This document shows positions 37,799 through 55,851 of a stretch of DNA of 64,000 nucleotides, piece after piece. The notes beneath the pieces were generated by a model. That model was not told where the DNA came from and did no database searches. It was given only the letters and a program-made list of their open reading frames with translations. The DNA comes from Carnobacterium iners. GTDB lineage: Bacteria; Bacillota; Bacilli; Lactobacillales; Carnobacteriaceae. Position 1 is the first letter of the stretch. Each line of letters starts with the position of its first letter. The stretch covers positions 1,678,001 through 1,742,000 of the forward strand of contig NZ_FXBJ01000002.1 of the NCBI RefSeq assembly GCF_900177385.1, in the 5' to 3' direction. The position numbers and the translations under genes were made by a program.

Positions 37799-37843
37799 AG
37801 TTCATTTTTACTCAAAAAATAAAAAACTATTGGAGGAAACATT

Positions 37844-38860
37844 ATGACAGAAACAGTATTTCAAGGACGCAGCTTTTTAGCAGAAAAAGATTTTTCTAAA
37901 GAAGAATTGGTCTATCTAATCGAATTTTCAGAGCATCTAAAGCGATTAAAGAAAAATAATATTCCTCATCATTATTTAGAAGGTAAAAATATTGCTTTAT
38001 TATTTGAAAAATCATCTACAAGAACGCGTGCTGCTTTTACAGCAGCGGCTATTGACCTAGGTGCTCATCCAGAGTATTTAGGAAAAGATGATATTCAATT
38101 AGGTAAAAAAGAATCAGTAGAAGATACTGCTCGTGTTTTAGGCGGCATGTTTGATGGAATCGAATTTAGAGGATTTAGTCAAAAAGTAGTCGAACAATTA
38201 GCAGAATTTTCTGGTGTACCTGTCTGGAATGGTTTAACAGATGACTGGCACCCAACTCAAATGATTGCTGACTTCTTAACAATCAAAGAAAATTTTGGCC
38301 ATCTTGAAGGTGTGACATTAGCTTATGTTGGAGACGGACGAAACAACGTTGCGAATAGTTTATTAGTAACAGCAGCTATTTTAGGAGTAAACATTCGAAT
38401 CGTTGCTCCTGATTCATTATTCCCAGATCAAAAATTAATTGACATGGCCAACGAATACGCAAAAACATCTGGTAGTGAAGTTATGATTACAGATGATGTT
38501 AAAAAAGGTGTTAAAGATGCAGATGCTCTTTATACAGACGTTTGGGTTTCAATGGGAGAAGAAGACAAATTTGCTGAACGTATTGAGTTATTAACTCCTT
38601 ATCAAATCAACATGGACATGGTTCGTGCGACAGGTAAAGAAGATATGATCATCTTACATTGCTTGCCTGCTTTCCATGATGCTGAAACAATTTATGGCAA
38701 ACAAGTGCAAAAAGATCATAACATTACAGCAATGGAAATTACTGATGAGGCTTTCCGTAGCAAGCATGCTCGCCAATTTGATCAAGCTGAAAATAGAATG
38801 CATTCTATCAAAGCTATTATGGCAGCAACATTAGGAAACTTGTTTATTCCAAAAGTTTAA
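37844..38860 (+). CDS. arcB: Ornithine carbamoyltransferase (catabolic)
   Basis: 338 residues. In the arc pathway it phosphorolyses citrulline to ornithine and carbamoyl phosphate. Carbamoyl-phosphate site KSSTRTR at residues 56-62; ornithine-side HCLPAFHD at 272-279 with the conserved Cys273. Size and position after arcA mark it as the catabolic enzyme. Ribosome-binding site TTGGAGGAAA. A hairpin separates it from arcC. Confidence 0.96.
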
Positions 38861-38886
38861 GATTAAAAAAAGTAAGACAAGAACTT

Positions 38887-38921
38887 TAGAGCATGGGGAA
38901 TACTGCCATCCTTATGCTCTA
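38887..38921 (+). other. Intercistronic hairpin between arcB and arcC
   Basis: TAGAGCAT (38887-38894) pairs exactly with ATGCTCTA (38914-38921), with extra GG/CC pairing inside. Only a mixed TCTTTCTCTT follows, so it may be a partial terminator or an mRNA-processing structure that lowers arcC relative to arcAB. Confidence 0.5.
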
Positions 38922-39038
38922 TCTTTCTCTTAAAAATAATAAAAAACGAGTTAATACTAGTAAACGTAGAATATCCGACATATAATAAGCAGGAACAACC
39001 GTTTTCAAAAAAATACGAATCGAGATAGGATGGATAAT

Positions 39039-39980
39039 ATGACAAAAAGAAAGATTGTAATTGCTTTAGGTGGAAATGCGATTTTATCAGATGATGCTAG
39101 TGCAGCTGCACAACAAGCCGCGCTTGTAGAAACAGCAGAATATTTGGTAAAATTCATTGAAAATGGGGATGATTTAATCATTTCTCACGGCAACGGTCCT
39201 CAAGTAGGGAACTTATTGTTGCAACAAGCGGCTACTGATAGCGAAAAAAACCCAGCAATGCCTATTGATACTTGCGTAGCAATGACACAAGGAAGTATCG
39301 GTTACTGGATGCAAAATGCTTTAGGTAATGCTTTGGCAAAAAGAAATATCAAAAAGCCTGTTGTATCTATCGTAACTCAAGTAGTCGTAGATGAGAATGA
39401 CCAAGCTTTCAAAAATCCAACTAAACCTATTGGACCTTTCTTATCAGAAGAAGATGCACAAAAAGAAATGGATAGAACAGGTTCAATATTTAAAGAGGAT
39501 GCCAGTAGAGGATGGCGCAAAGTGGTTGCTTCACCAAAACCTGTTAGTATTCAAGAATACGAAGTTGTAAACCAACTTGTCGAAAGTGGAGTAGTTACTA
39601 TTTCAGTTGGTGGCGGTGGTGTTCCTGTAATCGTTAAAGATGGTGAATTAACGGGTATTGAAGCGGTTATCGATAAAGATTTTGCTTCTCAAAAATTAGC
39701 AGAATTAGTTAAAGCTGACTTATTAGTTGTTTTAACTGGCGTAGACAATGTTTTTATAAACTACAACAAACCGGATCAAAAGAAACTTGAAAATGTAACA
39801 GTTGCTGAGATGAAAAAATACATTGCAGAAAATCAATTTGCACCAGGTAGCATGTTGCCTAAAGTAGAAGCTGCGATTGCTTTTGTTGAAAACTATCCAC
39901 AAGGAAAAGCAATGATCACTTCTTTAGAAAACGTTGAAAATGTTTTAGAAGGAAATGGCGGAACAGTTATTACAAAATAA
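39039..39980 (+). CDS. arcC: Carbamate kinase of the arginine deiminase pathway
   Basis: 313 residues from ATG 39039 (GATAGGA 8 bp before; ATG 39030 overlaps that site). Converts carbamoyl phosphate and ADP to ATP, ammonia and CO2. Family signatures: [11 protein letters not shown] at the N-terminus, [42 protein letters not shown] and [10 protein letters not shown]. It ends the arc operon and is followed by a terminator. A second carbamate kinase lies 8.4 kb downstream in the FdrA cluster. Confidence 0.96.
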
Positions 39981-40982: not shown

Positions 40983-42611
40983 TTATTTGTTCATCATTTT
41001 TAGTAAACGTAAGCCAACGTTAATCTGTAAAAGTTCTTCGGCCTGATTAAATTGAATAGCCGTTAATTTTTTAATCTTATCTAACCGATAACGAACGGTT
41101 TTTGGATGAAGAAATAGTGTATCTGCAGTATCTTTATAATTTTGGTTTTTATCTAAAAATACTTTCAGTGTTTCAACCAAGTCAGGATGACTTGCATTTA
41201 ACGTAAGTAAGGATTCAGGAATGAATTTTTCAAATTGATTTAAATGATCCATATCAGCAAACAGTTGATAAATGCCAATATCATGGTAACTATAAATCAT
41301 ATTTTCTTCACCAAATAATGCCGTAATCTTTTGAGTATTTTTTGCTTGTTTATATAAGGATGGCAAATGAAGCAAGTCGCTTTTATAACTAAAGCTAATA
41401 GTTATATCTAGCTGGTCTAAACTGACTATTTTTTTACTTGCTTCAATACTAGCAAAGAGTCTCTTTTTAATTATTTCTTCTGAGTCTTGTTTAGTATCCA
41501 TGATAAAAACAATTTTATGATTGCGTATGAGATAAACATGTTGCAGCCAGTGTTTTTTTGTCTCTTCAATGAGCGTAAAGGCAAATTGCCGTTCTTTTTT
41601 ATGTTGCTCATCAGGCAACTCTGCCGTCAAAGAACTAGTAGGTAAGTGACAAATGAAAATTCGGAAATTTGAGCTATTTGTTAGTTTTAAGCTAGTAATT
41701 TTTTCGTTTAACTCATCTGTATCTTCAATGCGATTGTTTAGCATATCAGAAATAATACTATTTCTATAATGCAACGTTGTTTGAGAAACAGCGTATTTTT
41801 TTAGCAATTCCATTTGGAGAAAACTAATGGTATTCTCAATAGCTAGAAAATCTTCATTCGGTGTAGAAGAATCAAGTTCATGAACGATTAATTCATAAGA
41901 ATTAATTTTTAAGTTAGGGATAGGAACGACTAATTGCGTATACGTTTGATTGTTCTCAACTAGTTGTGAGGTAACTTTTCGTCTAGTATAATCGTAGTTC
42001 ATGTATTTCTGTTTATTTAATGAAATAGATTGAATAAACAAGACATTGTCATAAAATGGATTAGTACTAATCCATTCTTCTTTGATAGTATTTTTTAAGC
42101 TAATCGGTTTTTTTATTAATTTTTCTAGAACCCTTAAGATATCTACAATCTCTGGTTCATTTAAAGCCATTTTTGTAAAATGGTTTTGCAATGAGTAATA
42201 TTTTTCTAAAAGGTGGATATTATTATTGATTATTTTCCCCATAACATCTAGTAAAATAGGTTCGTATTGCGTCTGTTTAGGTATTTGTATTAATGGAAGT
42301 TCGTTTTTTTCGCATAATTCAATAATATATGCTGGAATAGAGACGACTAAACGGTCAATTTTGATAATTAAGCCACTTATTTTAAGCTGATGGACTTTGG
42401 TAAAAAAATCGCTCAGCTCAACAGAAGAAAGATCCTTTAAAGCGTAGTAGCTACTTAGCAACAACTCACCTTCGCGGCCCCAACTTTCGATATCCGGACC
42501 TTCTACAATCATAATACCGGTTACACTATTTGTTAACTTGGCGTGTTTAGTTAAAATCGTTGCTTCTTTGAGAGAATCAAAATCAAGCAATTCTTTTACT
42601 GTTAAATTCAT
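40983..42611 (-). CDS. PucR-family transcriptional regulator
   Basis: 542 residues from the ATG at 42611 (AAGGAAGTGA upstream; the frame is open further without a site). The N-terminal PucR domain (about residues 1-125) starts NLTVKELLDFDSLKEATILT. The middle is a GGDEF-like degenerate region. The C-terminal HTH (about 480-540) is FLDKNQNYKDTADTLFLHPKTVRYRLDKI, quoted here only as its ends FLDKNQNYKDTA and HPKTVRYRLDKI. PucR activates purine/ureide catabolism in Bacillus. Here it sits between the arc genes and the FdrA cluster, so it is the best candidate regulator for that cluster. Confidence 0.87.
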   Translation of the reverse strand: MNLTVKELLDFDSLKEATILTKHAKLTNSVTGIMIVEGPDIESWGREGELLLSSYYALKDLSSVELSDFFTKVHQLKISGLIIKIDRLVVSIPAYIIELCEKNELPLIQIPKQTQYEPILLDVMGKIINNNIHLLEKYYSLQNHFTKMALNEPEIVDILRVLEKLIKKPISLKNTIKEEWISTNPFYDNVLFIQSISLNKQKYMNYDYTRRKVTSQLVENNQTYTQLVVPIPNLKINSYELIVHELDSSTPNEDFLAIENTISFLQMELLKKYAVSQTTLHYRNSIISDMLNNRIEDTDELNEKITSLKLTNSSNFRIFICHLPTSSLTAELPDEQHKKERQFAFTLIEETKKHWLQHVYLIRNHKIVFIMDTKQDSEEIIKKRLFASIEASKKIVSLDQLDITISFSYKSDLLHLPSLYKQAKNTQKITALFGEENMIYSYHDIGIYQLFADMDHLNQFEKFIPESLLTLNASHPDLVETLKVFLDKNQNYKDTADTLFLHPKTVRYRLDKIKKLTAIQFNQAEELLQINVGLRLLKMMNK

Positions 42612-42971
42612 ACATTCACTTCCTTGTTTGTCATTATAAAGCAATATGCAAAGCTTTTCTCTATTCAAAATAGAAAACGCTCTATTCTTTAAATTAGTAC
42701 GAGGATGGATTGCAAAACAATACATAATTGACTAAAAAGAAGTACATTTACTATAACAGAAAAAAACAGTTGGAACCATTCTAAATAAAGATATTAGTAA
42801 GTAAATAGACATAGAATGATAGGTAATTTTAAAAAAGAATCTGTTATAGCGATACTAGTCAAAATAGAGATTGGTTATAAAGTTCCTCGGTTAGATTAAC
42901 CTATAAAAAGCCTCATCTAGTCGTTTTTATGAAAAACGCTTAGATAAGGCTTTTTGTGTAAGTTTATTGAG
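42612..42971. other. Gap between the PucR gene and the hydrolase
   Basis: 360 bp without a gene. It holds the PucR promoter region, not resolved, and the terminator of the leftward hydrolase at 42904-42955. Confidence 0.5.
42904..42955 (-). terminator. Long terminator hairpin of the alpha/beta hydrolase gene
   Basis: AAAAAGCCTCATCTAG and CTTAGATAAGGCTTTTT pair with two small defects. An inner CGTTTTT/AAAAACG stem around ATG extends it. Confidence 0.75.
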
Positions 42972-43820
42972 TTATCTTTTTAACCATTCAAGTAGTTCTT
43001 GGTATATTTGAAGAGCTTCTTTATTTGTTGGATCGCTATCAAAATCATGATTGGCTTGTTCTAGTGTAATAAATTTAGCAGAAGAAACTTTTTCACTCAA
43101 GTTTTCTCCTTGTTGGAAAGGAACGTCGTTATCCGTTTTGCTCTGAGCGATAAAAACTGGTGGAAGGCTTGCTAATTCATCATCTGAAAGTGAAAATTGA
43201 TTTTGACATTTTTTATCGGGTAAGATTAAATCTAGCCAACGTCCTGTTTGTCTAGCATAAAGGTAGATAGCGTAGCGTGTTTGTAATGGGCCCTTAGCAA
43301 GAGGTGCAGGTTGGGTTAGTTGAGCAATTAAAGATTTAGGCATAAGTGGATACTGCTGGTAGTGTTTACTTGGTAAGAGATAAAAAGACTCTTGAATAGA
43401 AGAGTACCCGTAAAAGCTAATAATTTTATTGGGTCTCTTTCCTATATTCAAATCACTCCCAAGAAGTAAAGCTAAGTAAGCTCCAGCAGATCGACCAAAC
43501 AAATGGTAGTCATTTGATGATAAATGTAAGACTGTATCGGAATGGTGAATGAACCATTTAACAGCTTCAACAGCGCTGCTATAAATTTCTGGTAAAGCTG
43601 TTTCTGGCGCCAAAGGATAATCGACAGTTAAAAGATGGTAGCCAGCCTTTAAAAAGAGATCGATATAAGCTTGCGGTAAGTCGTCACGGTCGCCCCAAAT
43701 TAATCCACCACCGTGAAAATAAATAATGGTTTCATTTTTTAAATTAGCCGTACTTCGATAAAAAGAAGCAGATAGTGTAAGAGAAGAATGAGTAGCATAA
43801 GAAAAAAATTCTGGTTCCAT
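42972..43820 (-). CDS. Alpha/beta hydrolase (esterase/lipase-like, HGGG family)
   Basis: 282 residues from the ATG at 43820 (AGGAGG 8 bp before). The oxyanion-hole motif YFHGGGLIWG, the nucleophile elbow FGRSAGAYLAL with Ser, and a late His in EQANHDFDSDP fit the hormone-sensitive-lipase/BD-FAE type of serine esterase. A probable acid residue is in IAQSKTDNDVPF. No signal peptide. It is transcribed away from the FdrA cluster and shares its upstream region with it, so it could be co-regulated. Substrate unknown. Confidence 0.82.
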   Translation of the reverse strand: MEPEFFSYATHSSLTLSASFYRSTANLKNETIIYFHGGGLIWGDRDDLPQAYIDLFLKAGYHLLTVDYPLAPETALPEIYSSAVEAVKWFIHHSDTVLHLSSNDYHLFGRSAGAYLALLLGSDLNIGKRPNKIISFYGYSSIQESFYLLPSKHYQQYPLMPKSLIAQLTQPAPLAKGPLQTRYAIYLYARQTGRWLDLILPDKKCQNQFSLSDDELASLPPVFIAQSKTDNDVPFQQGENLSEKVSSAKFITLEQANHDFDSDPTNKEALQIYQELLEWLKR

Positions 43821-44302
43821 GTTGTTAAACCTCCTGAAATTTACTTGAAAACGGGATATAGTGAGCTCAAAGTATAACAAAAGAAAGGCAATAAAAGGGT
43901 GGGTTTTTCTTTTATCAGTCCGAATTATACATCAAAGACAATAAAAGGGGGTCTCTTTTAGCTCTATGGTACAATGCAATCATAGAAAAAAGGCGTTATA
44001 CTATGTATTGTAAGCCTTTCCTTTAGCAGTGCATTTATGTCGTACTTTAGTACTGTTTGATCAAAAGATTATTAGGTTTTTGTAAAAAGAGGGTAAATTT
44101 AGTTCATTAGTAGATAGAAATGGTCTTATTCTTCTAAAGGAGAATGAACCCGTATTAAAAGGAACTAGAACTAGAAGTTTTGAGACTACTTTTAATCGGA
44201 AAACCAGTAAAGCGAATAATGCAACTAAATTCTCAACGTATCGTGCTGACTAAAGGATTGGTTAAGCGCCCAATTAAATTAAATAGATTGCGAGGAATCA
44301 AA
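43821..44302. other. Divergent control region of the FdrA cluster with direct repeats
   Basis: About 480 bp. CAATAAAAGGGTGGGTTTTT...CTTTTATC at 43889-43916 and CAATAAAAGGGGGT..CTTTTAGC at 43939-43962 are imperfect copies 50 bp apart. Each carries an AAAAG...CTTTT inverted repeat. A TACAAT -10-like box (43970-43975) follows, without a clear -35, suggesting an activator-dependent promoter. The leader to the fdrA start is about 320 nt. Confidence 0.5.
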
Positions 44303-46060
44303 ATGTTACACACAATAATTAAAGAAAATTCTTATCAAGACTCAATTGTACTAATGTTGTTAACAAACAAATTAAATACAATTGAAGGCGTTACAAAAGT
44401 TTCTATTATGATGGGAACACCTGCTAATAAAGATTTATTCGAAGGTAGTGGCTTAAAAACACCAGAACTTGCATCAGCTTCTGCAAATGATATGGCTCTT
44501 GTCGTAGATGCAGAAAACGATGGCGTAATGGATGCTGTCTTAGTAGAAGTAGATGAATTCTTAGCTTCACAAGCAACGACTGATTCAGAAGATACTAACG
44601 AAACAGCACGCACATGGGCAACAGCTATGAAATTAGGAAAAGATTCGAACGTTGCATTAATTTCTGTTCCTGGTACGTATGCAGCTCTTGAAACAGAAAA
44701 GGCATTAGACGAAGGATTAAACCCATTTATCTTTAGTGATAACGTATCAATTGAAGACGAAGTTCGCTTGAAGAAAAAAGCTCACGAAAAAGGCTTAATC
44801 ATGATGGGACCCGACTGTGGAACGGGTATTATTAATGGCGTTCCAATGGCTTTTACAAACATTGTTAGACCAGGAAGAATCAGCATCGTTGGTGCTTCAG
44901 GCACAGGAATTCAAGAAGTTTCAACAATTATCGACAAATTAGGTGCAGGTGTAACCAATGCTATTGGTACCGGTGGCCGTGATTTATCAGAAGAAGTTGG
45001 CGGAATTACGATGTTAGATACAATCGTAGCATTAGAAGAAGATCCTAATACAGACGTAATCGTGGTTATTTCTAAGCCACCTGCAAAATCTGTTAGAGAT
45101 AAAGTACTTGGTTTATTAAGACAAGTTTCTAAACCTGTTGTAACTATTTTCTTAGGTGAAAAACCAACGTACCACGAAAAAAATCTTTACCATGCTTACA
45201 CACTAGAAGAAACGGCTAAATTAGCTGTTACTTTATTAAATGGCGAAGAAGTTAAAGCACTAGACGAAACAGTAACTATTCCTTCTGTTGAACTGAAACC
45301 AGAACAAACCTTAATTAAAGGTTATTATTCAGGTGGAACATTAGCTAACGAAGCAGGTATGTTAATTGCTGACGGTTTGAATCTTGAAGAAGGATTAACT
45401 CATGAAGATGGATTTATTTTAAATTCTGCAGGACATGAAATCATCGATTTAGGGGATGACATGTACACACAAGGAAAACCTCACCCAATGATTGACCCTG
45501 AAAAGAGAATTGAAATGATTCAAACAGCCGGCGACAACCCAGAAACAGCAGTCATCTTGTTAGACGTTGTACTTGGTTACGGTGCACATGACGATATGGC
45601 TACTGAATTAGCTCCAGCTATCAAAGAAGCTAAAGAAAATGCTAAAAAAGATGGACGCGAATTATTAGTTTTAGGAACAGTCGTTGGAACAACAGCTGAC
45701 CCACAAAACTTAGTTCGTCAACAACAAATTCTTGAAGAAGCTGGCGTTATTGTTTGTTCAAGCAACAACAAAGCTGTTCGTACAGCTTTAGGTTTACTAG
45801 GACATACCGTAAAAGACGAAGAAAAAGGCTTTAAAGTAGTTGAAGAAGCAACGAGTGCTTCATTGCCTAAAGCCTCTCAAGCTGTTTTAGACTTATTAAG
45901 CACAAAACCATACGTAATCAACGTCGGTTTGAAGAGCTTTGCAGAAGCAATTGAAGAAAACCAAGGTAAAGCTGTTCAATTTGACTGGAGACCAAGCGCT
46001 GGTGGAGATGTAAAACTTCAAAAAATCTTGTACTTCTTAGATAATTACGTAGCAAAATAA
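44303..46060 (+). CDS. fdrA: FdrA-family acyl-CoA-synthetase-like carbamoyltransferase subunit
   Basis: 585 residues from ATG 44303; GAGGAA precedes it and the upstream in-frame stretch from 44180 is unlike the family. The CoA-ligase-type Rossmann domains contain MGPDCGTGIINGVP (GPDCGT at 169-174), SIVGASGTGIQEVSTIIDKL and GTGGRDLSEEVGG. The C-terminal half has YYSGGTLANEA, DLGDDMYTQGKPHPMIDP and DVVLGYGAHDDMA. E. coli FdrA (AllF), with DUF1116 and DUF2877 partners, forms the oxamate carbamoyltransferase of allantoin breakdown. Here the same three partners and a carbamate kinase follow. The reaction, phosphorolysis of an N-carbamoyl compound to carbamoyl phosphate, is inferred from that system. 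Confidence 0.88.
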   Translation: MLHTIIKENSYQDSIVLMLLTNKLNTIEGVTKVSIMMGTPANKDLFEGSGLKTPELASASANDMALVVDAENDGVMDAVLVEVDEFLASQATTDSEDTNETARTWATAMKLGKDSNVALISVPGTYAALETEKALDEGLNPFIFSDNVSIEDEVRLKKKAHEKGLIMMGPDCGTGIINGVPMAFTNIVRPGRISIVGASGTGIQEVSTIIDKLGAGVTNAIGTGGRDLSEEVGGITMLDTIVALEEDPNTDVIVVISKPPAKSVRDKVLGLLRQVSKPVVTIFLGEKPTYHEKNLYHAYTLEETAKLAVTLLNGEEVKALDETVTIPSVELKPEQTLIKGYYSGGTLANEAGMLIADGLNLEEGLTHEDGFILNSAGHEIIDLGDDMYTQGKPHPMIDPEKRIEMIQTAGDNPETAVILLDVVLGYGAHDDMATELAPAIKEAKENAKKDGRELLVLGTVVGTTADPQNLVRQQQILEEAGVIVCSSNNKAVRTALGLLGHTVKDEEKGFKVVEEATSASLPKASQAVLDLLSTKPYVINVGLKSFAEAIEENQGKAVQFDWRPSAGGDVKLQKILYFLDNYVAK

Positions 46061-46101
46061 AATGAATAAATTGTAGAACAATATAGGAGGGTTTTTAAAA
46101 A

Positions 46102-47364
46102 ATGAATTATAAAACAATTGACGAAGCAAACCAAGCTGTCATTGACAAAATTGTAGCAGGTTCTCCGTTTTTATTAGATGTTGTACCCGCAAAAACGGTT
46201 ATCGAAGAATTGAATGGAAAAGTATTATTACATGCTGGACCTCCAATTAAATATGAAAACATGACTGATCCAATGAAAGGTTCATGTGTTGGAGCTTCAC
46301 TTTTCGAAGAGTGGGCTACAACTGAAGAAGAAGCAAGAGCAATGCTTGATAGAGGCGAAGTATCCTTTATTCCTTGTCATCACGTAGATGCTGTTGGACC
46401 AATGGGTGGAATCACTTCTGGAAATATGCCTGTTTTAGTAGTAGAAAACAGAACAGACGGCAACCGTGCTTACTGTACGTTAAATGAAGGAATTGGTGCT
46501 GTTTTACGTTTTGGAGCTTACAACGAAGAAGTTGTTACTCGTCTGCGTTGGATGCGCGATATCTTAGGACCTGCATTAAGTAAAGTGTTGAACAAGATGG
46601 ACGAAGGGATGAACTTGAACGTTATCATTGCAAAATCAATTGCAATGGGAGATGAGTTCCACCAACGTAACATCGCTGCTTCACTAAACTTCTTAAAAGA
46701 AGTTGTTCCTTATATGTCTGAAATCGATATGAACGAAAAAGATCGCCAAGATGTTTTAGTCTTCTTAGCAGATACGGATCAATTCTTCTTAAACCCAATG
46801 ATGGCAGCTGCTAAAGTTGTTATGGATGGAGCAAGAATGATTGAAGAAGGTACAATCGTTACAGCTATGACAAGAAACGGTGAAAACTTTGGTATTCGTA
46901 TCAGTGGTATGGGAGACGAGTGGTTCACTGGTCCTGTTAACACACCAAAAGGACTTTACTTCTCTGGTTTTTCTGAAGATGATGCCAATCCAGATATTGG
47001 AGATAGCTCAATAACAGAAACATTTGGTGTTGGTGGAATGGCAATGGTTGCTGCTCCAGCAGTTACACGTTTTGTTGGTACTGGTGGTTTTGGTGATGCA
47101 CTAAAAACAAGTAATGACATGATGGAAATTACAGTTGGTCACAACACAAACTTCCCAATTCCAACATGGGACTTTAAAGGTATTGTACTAGGAATTGATG
47201 CAAGAAAAGTTGTTTCAACAGGTATTTTACCAGTAATCAACACAGGTATTGCAAACAAAGTTGCAGGCAGAGGTCAAATTGGCGCAGGAACAGTAAATCC
47301 TCCAATTGAAGCTTTTGAAAAAGCTGTTACAGCGTATGCGAAAAAATTAGGTATGGAAATTTAA
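46102..47364 (+). CDS. DUF1116 protein (YlbE/AllG-like carbamoyltransferase subunit)
   Basis: 420 residues, cytoplasmic. Conserved family stretches are LLHAGPPIKYENMTDPMKGS, IPCHHVDAVGPMGGITSGNM, VENRTDGNRAYCTLNEGIG and MTRNGENFGIRISG. It is the second gene of the four-gene set (FdrA, DUF1116, DUF2877, carbamate kinase), 41 bp after fdrA with an AGGAGG site. In E. coli the homologue is required for oxamate carbamoyltransferase activity. The family has no solved mechanism that I can read from the sequence; the HH pair and the Cys/Asn-rich stretches are candidates for the active site. Confidence 0.88.
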   Translation: MNYKTIDEANQAVIDKIVAGSPFLLDVVPAKTVIEELNGKVLLHAGPPIKYENMTDPMKGSCVGASLFEEWATTEEEARAMLDRGEVSFIPCHHVDAVGPMGGITSGNMPVLVVENRTDGNRAYCTLNEGIGAVLRFGAYNEEVVTRLRWMRDILGPALSKVLNKMDEGMNLNVIIAKSIAMGDEFHQRNIAASLNFLKEVVPYMSEIDMNEKDRQDVLVFLADTDQFFLNPMMAAAKVVMDGARMIEEGTIVTAMTRNGENFGIRISGMGDEWFTGPVNTPKGLYFSGFSEDDANPDIGDSSITETFGVGGMAMVAAPAVTRFVGTGGFGDALKTSNDMMEITVGHNTNFPIPTWDFKGIVLGIDARKVVSTGILPVINTGIANKVAGRGQIGAGTVNPPIEAFEKAVTAYAKKLGMEI

Positions 47365-47382
47365 CTTAATCTAAAATAGATG

Positions 47383-47438
47383 ATCAGTGAGTGAGTAAAG
47401 CAAACAAAAGGTTTGAAAGCTCATTGATTCATTTTTTC
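47383..47438 (+). terminator. Possible attenuator between the DUF1116 and DUF2877 genes
   Basis: ATCAGTGAG (47383-47391) pairs with CTCATTGAT (47420-47428, one G-U), with an inner CAAAC/GTTTG, then TCATTTTTTC. Confidence 0.45.
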
Positions 47439-47463
47439 ATCTTGTTTATTAGGAAGGACTAAC

Positions 47464-48333
47464 ATGATTTTTATTCAGAAGATGTCAAAACAGTTAAAAG
47501 AACAAATGCAACCTGATCAAGATAAGTTGACTTCTTGGAAAGTGCATAGTATCTTTAAAAATGGTTTTAATTTAATGAGTGGGAAGCAGTTACTTTTTAT
47601 AGGAACAGATAAAAATGGAGAGCTGCCTTTTTCTTTGCATTTAACTGCAAGAGATACAAAAGTAATCTTAAAAGAAATTAGTATTGGCGATACTTTTCAT
47701 TATGATTATGAAAAGAAAGTAATGACTATTCATCAACTAGTCCTCTCATTTGATTATTGTTATGTTTATGACTCTATCTTACCTTTGCAACAAAAAATAA
47801 GTTTAAATCAAATAGATTCAACTTTGGAAGAAGCTGAAAAGATTTTAGAATTAAATGGATTTAAAAAACAATTGCCATTATTTTTTACTACTATAGATTA
47901 TGATGAATCCTTTATGAAATCAATTGAAGGTCTCTTTTCAAATGAAGAAAAAACCCTGAAAGAAAGTATGCTTTATTTCATAGGGCGTGGAATGGGGCTA
48001 ACACCTTCAGGAGATGATCTTTTAGTCGGTTTGCTGAGTATCGACTCAGGCTATCCTCTATTAGATGAACGTTTTCGCAGTATTATTATAGAGCTGCTAG
48101 AAACAAAGAGTCTAACGACTATTGTGGCAGAAACGTATTTACGTTATGCCGCTCAACATAAATACAGCACAACTATTGTATCTTTTGTTGGGGAACTGAA
48201 TGAAAACCCAAGTGGGAATCAGCTTAAAGTAGATTTTAAAACGATCCTGACAAATGGAAGTACGTCAGGTTTGGACACCATGACCGGAATGCTTTTCGGA
48301 ATATTATCAGAAAAAAGGAGAATAAATTTATAA
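47464..48333 (+). CDS. DUF2877 protein (YlbF/AllH-like carbamoyltransferase subunit)
   Basis: 289 residues. The hallmark GRGMGLTPSGDDLLVGLL (about residues 174-191) identifies DUF2877. TNGSTSGLDTMTGMLFGI near the end is the second conserved block. Third member of the oxamate-carbamoyltransferase-like complex. Its stop codon and the ATG of the carbamate kinase share the last base. A paralogue lies at 54997. Confidence 0.87.
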   Translation: MIFIQKMSKQLKEQMQPDQDKLTSWKVHSIFKNGFNLMSGKQLLFIGTDKNGELPFSLHLTARDTKVILKEISIGDTFHYDYEKKVMTIHQLVLSFDYCYVYDSILPLQQKISLNQIDSTLEEAEKILELNGFKKQLPLFFTTIDYDESFMKSIEGLFSNEEKTLKESMLYFIGRGMGLTPSGDDLLVGLLSIDSGYPLLDERFRSIIIELLETKSLTTIVAETYLRYAAQHKYSTTIVSFVGELNENPSGNQLKVDFKTILTNGSTSGLDTMTGMLFGILSEKRRINL

Positions 48334-49286
48334 TGGGAAAACGTGTAGTTATCGCTCTTGGCGGAAATGCCATATTAAGACCTAATCAAAAAGCAACATT
48401 TGAAAACCAAATGGAAAATGTAGGTATTAGCACAGATTCTATTTCAGATGTTAAAAAAGCCGGCCATCAAGTTATTGTTACCCACGGAAACGGCCCACAA
48501 GTTGGGAATATTTTGAGACAAAACGAAGAAGCTAAAGAGGTTGTTCCACAATTGCCTTTACACGTTTTAAGTGCACAATCTCAAGGATTTATTGGTTATA
48601 TGATGGAACAATCATTGAAAAATGCTTTGCTTTCAAAAGGTATCTCAGGAAGCGTTGTAACTGTTCTAACACAAACAGAAGTAGATGCATCTGATAAAGC
48701 TTTCCAAAACCCAACAAAACCAATCGGTGTTTTTTACACTGAAGAAGAGTCTAAGCAATTAACGATTGAAAAAGGATGGGAAATGGCAGAAGATGCAGGC
48801 CGCGGTTACCGTCGCGTTGTTGCTTCTCCACAACCTAAAAAAATCCACGGCGTTGATTCAATTAAAACACTGATTGAAAATGATACTGTTGTTATTTCGA
48901 CAGGTGGCGGTGGAATTCCGGTTGTTTCTGATGAAAAGGGAATACTATCAGGAATAGAAGCGGTTATTGATAAAGATTTGTCTGGTTTAAGATTAGCAGA
49001 GCAAGTTGATGCTGATGTATTCATGATCTTAACAGACGTAAACAATGTTTATTTGAACTATGGCAAGTCGGATCAAATGAAGCTAGAAACAGTTGCTGTA
49101 GAAGAAGCCAATCGCTACGTCGCAGAAGGACATTTTGCTGCTGGAAGTATGGGACCAAAAATGGAAGCTGCAATTGCTTTTGCATCAAACGGCAAAGAAG
49201 CTATTATCTGTTCATTAGAAAATGCTGTTGATGCTTTAGCTGGTCTTTCAGGAACAAGAATCGTATTAGGGAGTGGAAAAAAATGA
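48333..49286 (+). CDS. Carbamate kinase of the FdrA cluster
   Basis: 317 residues with all carbamate kinase motifs: [60 protein letters not shown] and EAVIDKDLSG. It is clearly distinct from arcC. Corresponds in position to E. coli AllK (YbcF), which makes ATP from carbamoyl phosphate generated by the FdrA complex. One-base overlap with the DUF2877 gene and a 4-bp overlap with the transporter gene show a tightly coupled operon. Confidence 0.93.
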   Translation: MGKRVVIALGGNAILRPNQKATFENQMENVGISTDSISDVKKAGHQVIVTHGNGPQVGNILRQNEEAKEVVPQLPLHVLSAQSQGFIGYMMEQSLKNALLSKGISGSVVTVLTQTEVDASDKAFQNPTKPIGVFYTEEESKQLTIEKGWEMAEDAGRGYRRVVASPQPKKIHGVDSIKTLIENDTVVISTGGGGIPVVSDEKGILSGIEAVIDKDLSGLRLAEQVDADVFMILTDVNNVYLNYGKSDQMKLETVAVEEANRYVAEGHFAAGSMGPKMEAAIAFASNGKEAIICSLENAVDALAGLSGTRIVLGSGKK

Positions 49287-50641
49287 AATTGACAAAGAAA
49301 ATCATACTTTTACTAATGTATGCAGCGGTAGCTATTATTACGCCGTTAACTGTATTTGCAGCAGGAATTGACGCAGTCACAGCACCAACAGGATTTATGG
49401 CTATTGTTACGCTTATTCCTTTAATCGTTGTTTTAACGTTATTATTCTTGAAAGTAGATATGATTATTGCTGGTTTAGCTGGTGGGGCATTAGCTATGCT
49501 TATTGGCGGAATTGGTTTGGCAGAGGTTAACACACAATTTTTAGCAGCCATTCCCACAATGCTAACGATTACTGTTCCAATTGTTAACTCTGCTATTGCG
49601 ATGGCTGTGTTTAAATCAGGCGGGTATACTGCTGCTTTAACATTAGCTAAAAGAGGAACAAAAGGTAAAGTAGAATACGTTTCAGCCTTTATCGTTGTAT
49701 TAGTTGCAGCTGCAACTTATATGTCAGGTATCGGTGGAGGAAGTGCAATGGTTATTGCGCCATTAGCTTTCGCAGCAGTTGGAGTTGTTCCAGAATTGAT
49801 TGCCGCTATGTCTTTAGCAGCAGCAGTATCTTTCACAACATCACCAGCTTCACTTGAGTCTAGTATTGTTTCAAAATTAGGTGACATTCCCGTAAGTGAA
49901 TATGTTGCTACAATGCGTCCTTACTGGTTATTATTTGTCGCTATTGCAATTTTACTAGCATTTTTTGGTACAAAGCGCCGCAAATTAGGCTTTAAAGAAG
50001 AAGCAAATGATGAGTATTCAAAATTATCAAACAGTCAATTAGTTAAATTAACTCTTCCAGCAGTATTCTTATTGTTTGCTGTTATCTTAGGACCAGTTAT
50101 CAATAATCTAGTTGGTTACCCTATCTTTACACCACTAACTTACATGGTTGTTACACTTGCATTAATCTTCTTCTTCTCTAAATTCAATATGAATGAAACA
50201 GCTGAAGCAATGATTGATGGATCTACGTATATCTTGACACGTTTATTCCAAGTTGGTATTTTCTTAGGATTTATTAACGTGATTGCTCAAACAGGGACAT
50301 TTGCTGTCATCGCAGGTGTAGCTGAAGCGGCACCTGCAGCATTAGTTGTTCCTGTCGCTGTTTTAACGGGTATTTTAATCGGTGTTCCAGCGGGTGCTTA
50401 CGTTGGTTCAATCTTAACATTAGTTTTACCCGTTGCTGTTTCACTAGGTTTTACACCATTAGCACTAGGTTTCGTTACTATTGGTGTTGGTTTTGGTAGC
50501 CAAATGAGTTTCGTTAACATTACCATGCAAGCTTTATCTTCAGGATTTAATATTCCTATTTTAGAAGTTGTTAAAGGTAACGTTAAATGGATTACATTAG
50601 CTTCAGTCTTGTTATTAGTTATCTCATTAGTATTTGCATAA
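49283..50641 (+). CDS. Membrane transporter, ion-transporter (GntP/CitM-like) type
   Basis: 452 residues, about 11-12 membrane spans in two halves. Repeated signature-like segments are YMSGIGGGSAMVIAPLAFAA and GVPAGAYVGSILTLVLPVAV. The sequence has a GntP/CitMHS-like (IT superfamily) feel, but I do not recognise a characterised member. It lies between the carbamate kinase and the amidohydrolase in the same operon, so it very likely imports the pathway substrate (or exchanges it with a product). Confidence 0.75.
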   Translation: MKLTKKIILLLMYAAVAIITPLTVFAAGIDAVTAPTGFMAIVTLIPLIVVLTLLFLKVDMIIAGLAGGALAMLIGGIGLAEVNTQFLAAIPTMLTITVPIVNSAIAMAVFKSGGYTAALTLAKRGTKGKVEYVSAFIVVLVAAATYMSGIGGGSAMVIAPLAFAAVGVVPELIAAMSLAAAVSFTTSPASLESSIVSKLGDIPVSEYVATMRPYWLLFVAIAILLAFFGTKRRKLGFKEEANDEYSKLSNSQLVKLTLPAVFLLFAVILGPVINNLVGYPIFTPLTYMVVTLALIFFFSKFNMNETAEAMIDGSTYILTRLFQVGIFLGFINVIAQTGTFAVIAGVAEAAPAALVVPVAVLTGILIGVPAGAYVGSILTLVLPVAVSLGFTPLALGFVTIGVGFGSQMSFVNITMQALSSGFNIPILEVVKGNVKWITLASVLLLVISLVFA

Positions 50642-50666
50642 TCACAATAAAAGGAGAGATTTAGTA

Positions 50667-51890
50667 ATGGATATTTTATTAAAAAATGTACGCTTAAATG
50701 ATGGAGAAAGTTTAAAAGATGTCGCCATCGAAGATGGAAGAATTACAGCAATTGAAGAGAATATGACGGCAATAGCTGAGCGTGTTATTGATGCAGACGG
50801 AAGAGTGTTAATTCCGGGTTTTATTGAAAGTCACCTTCATTTAGATAAAGCATTAATTGCTGATCGCAAACCAAATAACTCAGGAACATTAAAAGAAGCT
50901 ATCAGTGTAACGGCAGAACTTAAGCCAACATTTACAAAAGAAGATATCTATGATCGTGCTAAAAGAACGCTAGATATGATTATTCCTAATGGTGTAACAG
51001 CTATCAGAACACATTCAGAATTTGATCCAGCACAAGGATTTACGGGATTTGAAATTGTGCTGAAATTAAAAGAAGAATACAAAAACTTGGTCGACATTCA
51101 AGTGGTTGCATTCCCACAAGAAGGAATCATTAAATCTCCTGGTACAGAAGAAATGATGAATCAAGCAATGGAAATGGGAGCAGACGTTGTTGGTGGAATT
51201 CCTTACAACGATTCAGATGCTGAGAAACACATTGATATCGTTTTTAAGATTGCTAAAAAATACAATAAACCAGTTGATATTCATGCTGAATTTAGTGATG
51301 AAGCAACAGATATGTCTATTGAGTACTTGTGCAAAAAAACAATTGCAGAAGGTTACCAAGGAAAAGTATCTGTTGGTCACCTAACAGCATTACACGCTTT
51401 ACCAAAAGCAGAATTAGACCCAATTATTGCAAAAATGGCTGAAGCCGGTATCAGTGTAATGGCATTAACTGCAACAGATTTACACTTAGGTGCTCGTAAC
51501 GATGAATACAACGTCAGAAGAGCGGTTACTCCTATTCGCAAGTTAAGAGATGGCGGAGTGAATATGTGTATTGCTACAAATAATATTCGCAATGCTTTCA
51601 CTCCTTATGGAAATGGTGATATCTTACAAACAGCTATGTTGACTATTCCAGTTGGTCACTTAGGTGGAGCAAATGACTTGAAAACTGTTTTACCAATGAT
51701 TACAGAAAACCCTGCAAAAGCAATTGGTTTAGTAGATTATGGTATCGCAGTTGGCAACAAAGCTGATGTTGTTTTATTAGATACTAAAATTAAAGGGAAT
51801 GCGATTATTGATATCCCAACTAGATTATTTGTTATTAAGAATGGTAAAGTTACCGTTGAAAGTACAAAAGAAACTATTATTCATCGTTGA
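50667..51890 (+). CDS. Amidohydrolase, cytosine deaminase (CodA)-like
   Basis: 407 residues from ATG 50667 (AAAGGAGAG upstream). A TIM-barrel metal hydrolase: ESHLHLDKALI (His56, His58), DIHAEFSDEA (His206), SVGHLTALHAL (His238). By remembered alignment with E. coli CodA, the catalytic Asp313 position (GHDDVFDPWYPLG) is Asn305 here (ATNNIRNAFTPYG). Relatives act on cytosine, isocytosine, creatinine or triazine-type cyclic amides/amidines. As the last gene of the operon it probably opens or deaminates the imported cyclic compound before the FdrA complex acts. The exact substrate is unknown. Confidence 0.8.
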   Translation: MDILLKNVRLNDGESLKDVAIEDGRITAIEENMTAIAERVIDADGRVLIPGFIESHLHLDKALIADRKPNNSGTLKEAISVTAELKPTFTKEDIYDRAKRTLDMIIPNGVTAIRTHSEFDPAQGFTGFEIVLKLKEEYKNLVDIQVVAFPQEGIIKSPGTEEMMNQAMEMGADVVGGIPYNDSDAEKHIDIVFKIAKKYNKPVDIHAEFSDEATDMSIEYLCKKTIAEGYQGKVSVGHLTALHALPKAELDPIIAKMAEAGISVMALTATDLHLGARNDEYNVRRAVTPIRKLRDGGVNMCIATNNIRNAFTPYGNGDILQTAMLTIPVGHLGGANDLKTVLPMITENPAKAIGLVDYGIAVGNKADVVLLDTKIKGNAIIDIPTRLFVIKNGKVTVESTKETIIHR

Positions 51891-51980: not shown

Positions 51981-52116
51981 TATTTAAATTTGAATAATTG
52001 TTTAAATGAGCTATATAAAACGATTAAATAAGTAGAGTAAATGACTATCTCGGAATAATGTAATCCTTGTTAGGAAAAGACTACGAATAAAAAGAAAGGT
52101 TGAGGTGTGGCTAGAT

Positions 52117-53406
52117 ATGATTGTTTTTAATCAAATAAATGAAAATACTTATTGCGATTCTGTCACTCTTGTAGTGATTTCAAATAAACTTTCTTTTATT
52201 GAAGGTATCAAAACAGCCTTAGTGATGATGGGAACAACCTATAATAAACAACTAATGAGACAATCAGGTTTATTAACCGAACAAGGAGAAAAAGCTCAAG
52301 CAACAGATTTGATTATTGGACTTGAAGGAGAGCATGATGAAGCAGTCCAAAAAGCATTAAGCATCGTTATGGCAGAACTCGGATACAGTAAAGACCCGGA
52401 GTCACGTGCTTTTTTAACCAATCGTTTAAAAGGAAATATTGGCTTAATAGGAACAGCCGGAGCAGGTCTTAGAGAAATAGCAGCGATTATAGCTAAAAAC
52501 AATAGTGGAATCACGCAAATAATAAAGATTGAACAAAAAAAAGTAGAAGAAGTAATTATTAAAAATGAATTGTTAAAAGGACTAAATAGTTTAAAAGAAG
52601 ATAAAGAGACAAAAATTATTTTGATAGCAGCTAAATTATTTCATGATGATGTGATGAAAGAAATCATAACAGCTATAAAAAACATTGCAAAACCAGTTGT
52701 AACTTGCTTCTTAGGCGGAGCTCCAACGCTAGTAGAAGAAAGCGGAGCGTTAGCGATGGGAACACTAGAAGATGCTGCTCATGCTGCTATTAAACTAGCT
52801 AATGGCAAAGAAGTGGAAAAAATTAATTTTACGCTAGCAGATAATCAATTAAAAGAATGGATTCTACAAGAAAGCTGCCAATTAAAAACCAACCAACTAT
52901 TCATTAGAGGATTATTTTTAAGTCAACCTCATTTTTACGAGAGTCTATTCATCATGAAAGAAAAAAAGTTTCCTATTTATTCAAATATAGTCTCAAAAGA
53001 TACGATGAGTTTAGAAAAGGTTACTATTAGTAAAAATCATACTTTACTTCATCTAACTGAAAATCAGTTTACACAAAACCTTTCAGATAATGCTTTACGA
53101 TTAGAAAGAATCAGCGAAGAAGCTAAAAAAGAAGACGTCGCAGTGATTTTACTTGATTTAATCATTAACTGTAGTACCCATGAAGATTTTACTCAAGAGC
53201 TTTCACAAGCAATTCAAGAAGCAAAGAAAAGTGCAGTAGATGAGGGCAGATACCTCTGTGTAGTAGCAAGTGTTTGTGGAATAGATCGAGGTTCCCAAAA
53301 TATAATGAAACAAGAAGAACTATTGAGGCAAGCAGGAGCAATTGTCATGCCTAGCAATGCGCAAGCAACTAGACTGGCTATTTTAATCACTGAAAACAGC
53401 CGATAA
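52117..53406 (+). CDS. Shortened, divergent FdrA paralogue
   Basis: 429 residues from ATG 52117 (GAGGTG 9 bp before; GTG 52105 is an alternative). The start aligns with the first FdrA (INENTYCDSVTLVVISNKLS against IKENSYQDSIVLMLLTNKLN). About 90 residues of the first Rossmann domain, including GPDCGT, are missing: the text jumps from DPESRAFLTNRLKGNIGLIG straight to the second fold (GTAGAGLREIAAII). GTGGRDLSEEVGG, YSGGTLANEA and DDMYTQGKP are not conserved, and the C-terminal extension is absent. The frame is intact, so it is probably expressed but not catalytically equivalent. It leads a second small cluster with a transporter and a DUF2877 paralogue. Confidence 0.8.
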   Translation: MIVFNQINENTYCDSVTLVVISNKLSFIEGIKTALVMMGTTYNKQLMRQSGLLTEQGEKAQATDLIIGLEGEHDEAVQKALSIVMAELGYSKDPESRAFLTNRLKGNIGLIGTAGAGLREIAAIIAKNNSGITQIIKIEQKKVEEVIIKNELLKGLNSLKEDKETKIILIAAKLFHDDVMKEIITAIKNIAKPVVTCFLGGAPTLVEESGALAMGTLEDAAHAAIKLANGKEVEKINFTLADNQLKEWILQESCQLKTNQLFIRGLFLSQPHFYESLFIMKEKKFPIYSNIVSKDTMSLEKVTISKNHTLLHLTENQFTQNLSDNALRLERISEEAKKEDVAVILLDLIINCSTHEDFTQELSQAIQEAKKSAVDEGRYLCVVASVCGIDRGSQNIMKQEELLRQAGAIVMPSNAQATRLAILITENSR

Positions 53407-53579: not shown

Positions 53580-54812
53580 ATGGGTAAACAAACATTCAGT
53601 AGTAAATTAAAAAGTATGGGTCCAGCAGCTATTATTGCAAGTGCTTTTATTGGACCAGGAACCATTACAACCACAACAATTGCAGGAGCCAATTATGGGT
53701 ACCAGCTTCTCTGGGCGGTACTATTTTCAATTATTGCCTTAATGGTATTGATGGAGATGAGTTCTCGGATTGGAATTATTTCAAGAAAAGATGCCATCAG
53801 TGCAGCAGAAGAAATGCTTCCTGAAAATAAAGTTTGGGGTATCTTTATTAAAACACTAGCTTTAGTAGCTGTACTTGTTACTTGTTTTGGTTTTCAAAGT
53901 GGCAATGAAATTGGTGCATCACTGGGTCTCGGAGACGCATTAGGCCTTTCAAATACTATTTCTGCTTTAATTGTTGGAGCGATTGTAATGGCAACAGCTC
54001 TAATGGGGACAACTAAAATTTTAGAAAAAATTATGCTATTATTTGTAAGTGTTATGGGAATCATCTTCGTTATCACAATGATTTTAGTAAAACCAGATAT
54101 TTCTGCTATGTTAAAAGGATTGTTTGTACCAACGATGCCAAATGGTGGTATAGTAACTACGATGGCACTTATTGGAACAAGTTTGATTGCCATCAATTTA
54201 GTGCTTCATTCGGTTACATCAAAAGATAAATGGAAGACACCGGAGGGACTGGTTGAAGCACGTTTTGATATTAAAGTGAATATTTTAATCGGGGGATTAA
54301 TTACAATTTCTATGTTGACAACAAGTGCGGCTCTTTTGTATGAAACAGGTACAGAAGTAACCAGCCCACTTGTCTTTTCTACTCAGTTAGAACCAATTTT
54401 AGGCAATGGTGCAAGAATTATAGGAGATTTAGGTATTTTTGCAGCTGGACTATCCTCAGCTATTGCAATTCCTTTCATCTTGAAAACTATTTTAGCTAGT
54501 ATTTTTAATTGGGAAAAAGGAATAAATGATAATAAAGCTAAATTAATGGCTGCTATTGTTGTTATTTTTGGTACAGCTTTTGCTGTAGCAGATGTTAAAC
54601 CAACACAAATTATTATATTTGCTCAAGCAACGAGCGGGTTCTTCTTACCTTTTTTCGCAGCTTTATTATTAGTTGTGTCAAATAGTAAGACAATTATGGG
54701 TAAATATACTAATACGCTTCTACAAAATATATTGGGATTAATAGCTGTCGTTGTTACACTAATAATCGGTATGATTGGATTATATGGAACGGTATCTAAT
54801 TTATTTAGCTAA
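53580..54812 (+). CDS. Nramp-fold transporter lacking the metal-binding motifs
   Basis: 410 residues, about 11 membrane spans, ribosome-binding site AAAGGAG. Overall it follows the Nramp (SLC11) pattern. However, the TM1 motif DPGN is GPGT (residues 25-28, AFIGPGTITTTTIAGANYGY), and the TM6 MPHN is IAIN (203-206, in SLIAINLVLHS). The Asp, Asn, Met and His that bind divalent metal are therefore gone, while the LeuT-like fold and the following LHS are kept. Together with its place between FdrA and DUF2877 paralogues, this argues for uptake of an organic substrate (amide or ureide) rather than Mn/Fe. Inference only. Confidence 0.75.
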   Translation: MGKQTFSSKLKSMGPAAIIASAFIGPGTITTTTIAGANYGYQLLWAVLFSIIALMVLMEMSSRIGIISRKDAISAAEEMLPENKVWGIFIKTLALVAVLVTCFGFQSGNEIGASLGLGDALGLSNTISALIVGAIVMATALMGTTKILEKIMLLFVSVMGIIFVITMILVKPDISAMLKGLFVPTMPNGGIVTTMALIGTSLIAINLVLHSVTSKDKWKTPEGLVEARFDIKVNILIGGLITISMLTTSAALLYETGTEVTSPLVFSTQLEPILGNGARIIGDLGIFAAGLSSAIAIPFILKTILASIFNWEKGINDNKAKLMAAIVVIFGTAFAVADVKPTQIIIFAQATSGFFLPFFAALLLVVSNSKTIMGKYTNTLLQNILGLIAVVVTLIIGMIGLYGTVSNLFS

Positions 54813-54996: not shown

Positions 54997-55851
54997 ATGA
55001 GGCCAGAGCAACTAGCAAAAAAAAGTAGTTACCTGACAGATTTTTTAAAAGAGGATTATTCTGGATTCGTCCATAGTATTTTTACACATAGTCTTAATAT
55101 TCAATTAGGAAAACAATTGGTTCATATAAGTGATTTACTAGAGCCTTTATCAGCTTTTGGATTGAAAATAGATAATGTAAAAATGAATTCTCTTTTAAAA
55201 GCAGTCAAAATTAATAACTTTGTTAATTATCAAAACAACACATTATTTTTTTACAATCACTTGAATAAAATTATTTCAATTATCAGTCTAGAAACACTAA
55301 TTGAAACAGAATTAACTCTTAAACCAATCGATTTCTTATCAGACCAAGAGCTTCAAGAAACAGTTTTTTTTAAAGAATTGAACAAATTGCCGTTAAAAAT
55401 GAAAACGGGTCTGCCATTAAGTACAAAAACGAGCAAGCACATTGATGAACTAAGTACGTATTCACTGGAAACATTATCGGATTATTCTATTTGGAATCAT
55501 TTTGTTGGTAGAGGAATTGGATTGACACCTAGTGGAGACGATTTCTTAATTGGGTATCTAGGTGTTTTAACATTATTTAATCAACAAAAAGAATCCGTTC
55601 AGGCCTTACGACCCTTCATACGCACAGAACAAACAACTGATATTAGTCTAGCTTACTTAACTTGTTTATTGCATGGCGTAGTGAATGAAAATATCAAAGA
55701 TTTAATTGTTTCCGTTTACTCCAAAGATCAAAAAGATATCCAATCCAAATTAGAGTGGATGCTATTATTTGGGCACACTTCAGGGACGGATACATTATAT
55801 GGGATGTTTATCGGAATGAAAGCAATGATATCGAAAGAAAATTATGGATAA
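54997..55851 (+). CDS. Second DUF2877 protein
   Basis: 284 residues. GRGIGLTPSGDDFLIGYLG and FGHTSGTDTLYGMFIGM are the two DUF2877 blocks, conserved as well as in the first copy at 47464. The N-terminal half is divergent. It follows the Nramp-like transporter by 184 bp. No second DUF1116 gene accompanies it, so it may share that subunit with the first cluster or work with the divergent FdrA in a different reaction. Confidence 0.82.
   Translation: MRPEQLAKKSSYLTDFLKEDYSGFVHSIFTHSLNIQLGKQLVHISDLLEPLSAFGLKIDNVKMNSLLKAVKINNFVNYQNNTLFFYNHLNKIISIISLETLIETELTLKPIDFLSDQELQETVFFKELNKLPLKMKTGLPLSTKTSKHIDELSTYSLETLSDYSIWNHFVGRGIGLTPSGDDFLIGYLGVLTLFNQQKESVQALRPFIRTEQTTDISLAYLTCLLHGVVNENIKDLIVSVYSKDQKDIQSKLEWMLLFGHTSGTDTLYGMFIGMKAMISKENYG

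Follow-up and report, generated by a model that had tools for sequence, protein, structure and literature searches.

The transporter gene and its surroundings

The window, a 64,000-nucleotide stretch of the Carnobacterium iners genome, contains an all cluster with the gene order fdrA/allF-allG-allH-carbamate kinase-permease-amidohydrolase (44180-51890), and 3' of it a gene for an Nramp-related transporter (Table 1). Oxalurate is a waste product of purines. In E. coli, AllFGH is the oxamic transcarbamylase, which converts oxalurate and phosphate to oxamate and carbamoyl phosphate (PMC11326118; this and the other papers cited by accession are used from excerpts), and the same enzymes, FdrA, AllG, AllH, and carbamate kinase, are encoded in the window. 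The all region of E. coli K-12 (L070, 29 features) differs in that an Nramp gene is absent; the allantoin transporter AllW is annotated there.

Table 1 Features of the window discussed in the text
Feature	Position	Strand	Remarks
PucR-type regulator, divergent from the all cluster	40983..42725	-	36% to the PucR of L052; NCBIfam AdeR-like, below cutoff
Alpha/beta hydrolase	42972..43880	-	Recurs beside allFGH in relatives
FdrA/AllF, main oxamate carbamoyltransferase	44306..46060	+	dN/dS 0.07 versus L050; ORF listed from TTG at 44180, start chosen by us
AllG, oxamate carbamoyltransferase subunit	46102..47364	+	PF06545, 320.4 bits
AllH, oxamate carbamoyltransferase subunit	47464..48333	+	PF11392, 79.3 bits
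Carbamate kinase of the all cluster	48333..49286	+	TIGR00746, 428.7 bits
Second permease-like protein, unrelated to Nramp	49283..50641	+	No Pfam/NCBIfam match at E 0.001
Amidohydrolase related to cytosine deaminases	50634..51890	+	Below NCBIfam cutoffs
FdrA2, shortened FdrA/AllF paralogue	52105..53406	+	~90 residues missing versus L051 FdrA; motifs lost
Nramp-related (G-type) transporter, 410 aa, PF01566	53580..54812	+	Profile match and homology
TM1 GPGT (G25-T28), replacing DPGN	53652..53663	+	Alignment to solved Nramps
TM6 IAIN (I203-N206), replacing MPHN	54186..54197	+	Alignment to solved Nramps
AllH2 (DUF2877)	54997..55851	+	Looks intact; 86% identity to the L051 AllH (complete second set)

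The transporter ORF was initially described as intact, and it is: it starts with ATG, has AAAGGAG shortly 5' of the start, and contains no internal stops. The protein matches the Pfam Nramp profile PF01566 with 239.3 bits (cutoff, 29.8) over residues 29 to 379 (model positions 1 to 356 of 357), and it is the sole PF01566 match in the 2.57-Mb genome. With phmmer, residues 11 to 396 align with solved Nramps, the best match at 3.1e-30, from which a LeuT fold is predicted; an AlphaFold2 model based on a four-sequence alignment (the window protein, L042, L043, and L044) had a mean pLDDT of 43. The default name for such proteins is metal transporter, and the caution urged earlier over such names was apt, since the NCBI model NF037982, "Nramp family divalent metal transporter," matches the window protein at 89.2 bits, above its own cutoff of 50. 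Promoter and terminator scans gave no signals above those of shuffled sequences.

Just upstream of the all cluster lies an arginine deiminase operon (arcA, ornithine carbamoyltransferase, and carbamate kinase; 36569-39980, plus strand), which puts two carbamoyl-phosphate routes side by side. Alpha/beta hydrolase genes are also found beside allFGH at L052:6753-7613, L056:10642-11520, and L091:4868-5716. The window's genome has another allFGH-carbamate kinase cluster (L075, G000:C2:131600-151500), together with a xanthine-permease-like gene, an amidohydrolase gene, and a homologue (41%) of the window's permease-like gene, which weakly resembles DcuC, below the cutoff; a truncated AllG is encoded at C2:1404726 (L076).

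Replacement of the metal-site residues

In phmmer alignments to the solved Nramps, G25-P26-G27-T28 of the window protein faces the TM1 motif DPGN and I203-A204-I205-N206 faces the TM6 motif MPHN, as proposed in the preliminary description. In DraNramp numbering, used throughout for D56, N59, M230, H232, E134, and Q378, the replacements are D56 to G25, N59 to T28, M230 to I203, H232 to I205, and E134 to N109. With regard to the metal ligands set out for DraNramp (PMC10185341), the earlier statement that the metal-coordinating residues are all lost is correct for three side chains, those of D56, N59, and M230, but not for the Q378 equivalent, present as Q349, or for the final Asn of MPHN, retained as N206; it applies to side chains only, as backbone-carbonyl ligands are not readable from sequence. 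In the region of the TM9 proton-path arginines, the phmmer alignment of the window protein to the solved Nramps has a gap.

The window protein therefore carries the signature GxxT-TxxI and is without the TM1 DPGN, the TM6 MPH ligand methionine, and the TM3 E134 of canonical Nramp/SLC11 proteins. It matches neither of two described variant signatures, DxxN-AxxT of the Al3+ branch NRAT and DxxG-TxxA/T of the Mg2+ branch NRMT (PMC8806188). EleNRMT, of the latter branch, resembles the window protein in belonging to PF01566 and in having neither the methionine nor most of the proton path, but it retains the TM1 aspartate. That residue is called universally conserved in SLC11, and mutating D55 of EleNRMT strongly compromises transport (PMC8806188); DraNramp D56A transports neither Mn nor Cd (PMC10185341). 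Canonical MntH/DMT1 proteins share with the window protein whole-length homology and the Q378 equivalent, but D56, N59, M230, H232, and E134 are all replaced in it.

A distinct clade of Nramp-related proteins

In a tree of 52 proteins, the window protein belongs to a group of 11, designated clade A (support, 100/100), in which its relatives are 43 to 88% identical to it. G-type and NRMT-like sequences separate from the canonical, DPGN-containing sequences at 100/100; the tree gives no definite branching point for clade A relative to the other G-type groups. Residues were scored by group in 46 of the 52 sequences, the other six being four NRMT-like proteins, L047 (GPGT), and L077 (GTGT). D56/N59/M230 are D/N/M in all 14 canonical sequences, and the D56 position is Gly in all 32 of the G-type. 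GPGT, I203, and I205 are each invariant in clade A (11/11), which indicates that the pattern is not a product of chance. The E134 position is Asn in all 11 as well, and the Q378 position is Gln in 5 and Ser in 6. Judged by its sequence, the window protein is an Nramp-related protein of the G-motif kind, lacking the canonical metal motif and lying outside the canonical clade.

The Nramp-related branch itself has been published. A 2026 preprint describes paraphyletic "Nramp-related proteins" without metal and proton residues, places B. subtilis MntG in a "G-motif 3" group, and calls the groups beyond G-motif 3 and NRMT-like uncharacterized (PMC12873925); Cellier refers to an "orphan" outgroup (PMC10606218). 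The G-motif groups, whose name we read as referring to Gly for the TM1 Asp, resemble the window protein in their PF01566 match, in the absence of the canonical TM1/TM6 metal motif, and in Asn for the TM3 Glu. They differ in that gene context is absent from the excerpts of the preprint, which likewise set apart no allFGH-linked clade carrying I-(G/A)-I-N in TM6. Full-text searches pairing Nramp with oxamate or hydantoinase, which left most subscription journals outside, found no report of an Nramp-allFGH link, and a search pairing it with allantoin returned nothing on such a link in titles and abstract openings.

Most clade A genes lie beside oxamate-pathway genes

Twelve clade A loci were compared: the window, the 10 other matches in the order sample, and L042. 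FdrA, AllG, or AllH is encoded on the fetched stretch in nine of them and absent at L055, L057, and L059, whose genomes (G566, G594, and G623) gave no AllG match. The transporter gene adjoins or lies between allG genes in L042 and L051, is divergent in L056, and is separated by a PucR gene in L053 and L054; in L058 it sits within the operon, between an MFS gene and the carbamate kinase gene. FdrA and AllG appear to be fused, in single ORFs of ~1,000 residues, in L052, L054, L056, and L058, which fits AllF and AllG acting as one enzyme.

Among the 246 genomes of the order sample, AllG was found in 71 and clade A in 11. AllG is present in 8 of the 11 clade A genomes versus 63 of the 235 others (Fisher p = 0.003, a value that overstates independence, as the species are related). 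Where both occur, the clade A gene is always within 7 kb of AllG (8/8), in several gene orders. As a control we used the remaining Nramps of the same sample, in which PF01566 was found in 184 of 246 genomes. Among the matches listed (to ~E 1e-99), inspected by eye, 38 AllG genomes have another Nramp, on the same contig in 19 and on a different contig in 19, and in none of the 19 same-contig genomes among these matches does it lie within 20 kb of AllG, the nearest being 22 kb away (G399). For at least 10 AllG genomes (G431, G440, G453, G509, G514, G545, G590, G609, G615, and G628), the Nramp is outside the matches listed. The control Nramps do not belong to clade A or to subclade B (see below), because the window protein, searched against this sample, gave no matches beyond the 11. 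The possibility, raised at the outset, that relatives with this motif occur only beside metal-homeostasis genes is contradicted by these neighborhoods: the recurrent neighbors of clade A are oxamate-pathway enzymes. The cluster does not strictly need a clade A protein, however, given the permease-like gene at 49283-50641 and the MFS gene in L052 and L058.

A second allFGH operon in decay

The transporter gene was originally noted as lying between FdrA and DUF2877 paralogues. The flanks are as stated but unequal, FdrA2 being degenerate and AllH2 apparently intact. FdrA2 lacks ~90 internal residues and the G(T/V)GGRD and SKPP motifs common to the other four FdrA sequences aligned; it is probably inactive and is the relic of a second allFGH operon, both AllG genes of which are gone from the window. 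A complete second set is found in G468 (L051), in the order fdrA'-allG-transporter-allG-allH2, and its FdrA and AllGs are 44 to 47% identical to the main ones of the window. In G405 (L050), all that remains ahead of the transporter gene is a fragment covering residues 5 to 71 of FdrA' (E = 7e-12), plus a pair of short, weak matches to the end of one AllG (E = 0.006 and 0.018); residues 3 to 48 of the other AllG (63%; E = 7e-10) follow it.

The transporter, in contrast, is intact in both the window's genome and G405. Comparison of the two gave a dN/dS of 0.078 (dN, 0.067; dS, 0.864), versus 0.055 to 0.19 for the main genes, and the transporter is under purifying selection. The clade A member of G623 contains internal stops. 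The second operon is decaying in the genus. The transporter has apparently persisted beyond the enzymes of its own set, pointing to a present role with the main allFGH cluster. As the adjoining FdrA2 is a relic, our argument rests on the main cluster and on the relatives.

The allD route to oxalurate

AllD, ureidoglycolate dehydrogenase, converts ureidoglycolate to oxalurate. In the window's genome its gene (G000:C2:207946-208975) has decayed to a pseudogene of three pieces containing stops, and G405 has only a trace of allD. AllD scored above the curated cutoff in 41 of 60 genomes examined: in 3 of the 8 with both clade A and AllG (G468, G510, and G569) versus 37 of 49 with AllG only (Fisher p = 0.04), a weak contrast, uncorrected for kinship, that covers 49 of the 63 AllG-only genomes. 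Among the clade A genomes without AllG, AllD is present in G623 and absent in G566 and G594. Ldh_2 proteins near L055 and L057 were considered as AllD and rejected, with scores of 160 to 164 bits against the 496-bit AllD cutoff. Where AllFGH is kept but the allD route is broken, import of oxalurate or a precursor would be expected, or else use of AllFGH on something else.

Other G-type subclades and their neighbors

Subclade B (GPGT, VVPYN), comprising the 10 best loci in other genomes, is 36 to 40% identical to the window protein. PxpA (PF03746) is encoded in all 10 of its genomes, within ~5 kb, versus none of the 11 clade A genomes. The predicted pockets differ too: I203/I205 in 11/11 clade A sequences versus V/Y in 11/11 of subclade B plus a haloarchaeal pair, so 5-oxoproline would not be expected as the clade A substrate. 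In that pair, on haloarchaeal plasmids (L045 and L046), a G-type Nramp gene overlaps or abuts hyuA-hyuB (hydantoinase/oxoprolinase A and B), a possible hydantoin- or lactam-uptake operon.

The class search for relatives 36 to 42% identical gave 24 others, of which 20 loci were fetched. A single pxp account of these relatives was rejected: among the 16 loci L098 to L113, 14 have an arginase-family gene instead, while L100 has pxpABC and L107 has neither. The arginase-family neighbors were identified by profile scan in L101 and L098 and by BLAST cluster in the other 12. TM1 reads GPGM or GPGA in 13 of these 14 loci (L098, L099, L101 to L106, and L108 to L113; all but L108, which was unread), with Met or Ala at the N59 position, and this subclade may carry a guanidino compound. 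A GPGS subclade has DHDPS-family neighbors in L078, L080, and L114, by profile, with enolase- and M20-type genes in L078; two neighbors scanned in L079 were not informative. Among the neighbors examined at L047, L077, and L107, none was telling. Of three canonical plasmid Nramps opened, L097 lies beside mntR and other metal genes, and L049 and L096 do not.

A GPGF group, subclade E (L093 to L095 and L081 to L083), lies beside pxp genes in Bacillus badius, Moraxella osloensis, and Lactiplantibacillus, among others. The Moraxella operon, consisting of the transporter gene, biotin carboxylase genes, pxpB, a pxpC-like gene, and pxpA, resembles the mum operon as described, and from this operon likeness YcsG/MntG, PxpT, and MumT perhaps belong to subclade E. 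Like clade A genes, the genes of these three share their operons with enzymes that degrade amides, lactams, or urea, but the partner is pxpABC (the mum genes in A. baumannii) rather than allFGH. Corynebacterium glutamicum cannot grow on 5-oxoproline without the NRAMP-family protein PxpT, which shares 50% identity with YcsG, and the defect was complemented; the authors of that study do not exclude metal transport (PMC13274462). In the literature excerpts, 5-oxoproline uptake is proposed for PxpT and YcsG, and Mn import is claimed for MntG and MumT. Clade A bears on this published dispute over whether YcsG/MntG, PxpT, and MumT carry Mn2+ or 5-oxoproline.

Proposed substrate and competing explanations

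On balance, we think it likely that the window protein is a functional transporter with an Nramp fold that has ceased to carry metals and moves a small organic nitrogen compound of the AllFGH pathway, most probably as an importer of oxalurate. From gene context we infer that it transports at all, as well as its substrate, direction, and coupling. An amide and a carboxylate are common to 5-oxoproline, oxalurate, and oxamate. In a LeuT-fold carrier, the site would lie where TM1 and TM6 unwind; its predicted lining of small or aliphatic residues (S21, A22, G25, T28, T200, I203, G/A204, and I205) could leave room for a small amido-carboxylate. The compound taken up would be oxalurate or a related ureide, for example parabanate, which AllFGH and carbamate kinase would split into oxamate, ammonia, CO2, and ATP. 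Uptake may run in exchange for the dead-end product oxamate, which would be economical by analogy with such antiporters. Oxamate is listed as a dead-end metabolite in E. coli models, produced but not consumed (PMC3781023).

This reading is supported by the replacement of D56, N59, and M230 in 11/11 sequences, by allFGH in 9 of the 12 loci against 0 of 19 control genomes among the matches listed, by the survival of the transporter beyond its operon, by the broken allD, and by PxpT and the ties of other G-type subclades to organic-nitrogen enzymes. Against it stand the 3 of 12 clade A loci with no allFGH nearby, the window protein's retention of the Q378 equivalent, the 12 of 49 AllG-only genomes that lack AllD yet have no clade A protein, and the reported Mn effects of MntG and MumT. 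The initial suggestion of an organic-solute Nramp branch, possibly for an amide or ureide, is supported in part, by the missing TM1 Asp and the recurrent oxamate-pathway neighbors; the substrate, however, comes from context, and MntG and MumT are reported to raise Mn. Clade A offers a candidate for the oxalurate/oxamate transport step and a concrete, testable case of organic cargo in a definable part of the superfamily.

A bolder version, which we advance tentatively, is that clade A is a dedicated oxalurate/oxamate exchanger, one of several G-type subclades each paired with its own organic-nitrogen enzyme. If so, it would be the missing transporter of the oxamate pathway, and the partners of the subclades would be oxamate carbamoyltransferase, 5-oxoprolinase, hydantoinase/oxoprolinase, and an arginase-family hydrolase. 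On this view the superfamily would be one for organic solutes, with metal transport, the trait by which the family is defined, as a single specialization of it, and the naming of MntG and MumT after Mn2+ would call for renewed testing.

An exporter that removes oxamate, the dead-end product of AllFGH, rather than an importer of oxalurate, seems unlikely to us. Such an exporter would be of use whatever the AllFGH substrate, in keeping with the transporter's retention despite the decay of the second enzyme set; in E. coli, 19.5 mM allantoin yields 17.7 mM oxamate, with no further metabolism of the product (PMC11326118), and a producing but no consuming reaction is recorded for oxamate (PMC3781023). 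However, PxpT and YcsG are read as importers from growth phenotypes in the excerpts available, the loss of AllD in clade A carriers fits import better, and the 63 of 71 AllG genomes without clade A must still dispose of oxamate.

Somewhat less likely again is a carrier of divalent metal (Mn2+/Mg2+) whose site is atypical, retained near nitrogen enzymes on account of their need for the metal. The retained Q349 and the position of the window protein as the genome's only PF01566 match favor it, and arginase-family enzymes, the neighbors of one subclade, commonly need Mn. Overexpression of YcsG/MntG raises Mn in B. subtilis, a triple importer mutant was unobtainable, and MntR and AhrC bind the mntG promoter (PMC10448178); an A. 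baumannii mumT mutant accumulates less Mn (PMC5050338); and Mg2+ is included when the AllFGH reaction of E. coli is carried out (PMC11326118). The MntG and MumT effects, however, are described as measured in cells. The TM1 aspartate, kept even in the Mg2+ branch, is absent from the window protein, and the E134 equivalent is Asn throughout clade A. With four metal-ABC binding proteins (PF01297) encoded in the window's genome, Mn or Zn uptake could proceed without this transporter; at least one such protein was found in each of 10 clade A genomes tested. No metal genes were found among the profiled clade A neighbors, most ORFs there being compared with our own reference set only. Of the three canonical loci, one (L097) lies beside mntR and metal genes.

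It is very improbable that the window protein is a 5-oxoproline transporter like PxpT, relocated next to allFGH. Clade A does share the TM1 GPGT motif and 36 to 40% identity with the pxpABC-linked subclade B, but the window's genome has no PxpA match, and both the distribution of PxpA (0/11 versus 10/10 genomes) and the pocket (I205 versus Y, each in 11/11, and I203 versus V) set the two apart. Least probable of all is a leftover of the decaying second operon that is functionless at present: although FdrA2 is degenerate, the second-set AllG genes are gone, and the clade A member of G623 has internal stops, the window gene keeps an open frame, a ribosome site, and a dN/dS that, at a dS of 0.86 versus G405, is comparable to that of the main genes.
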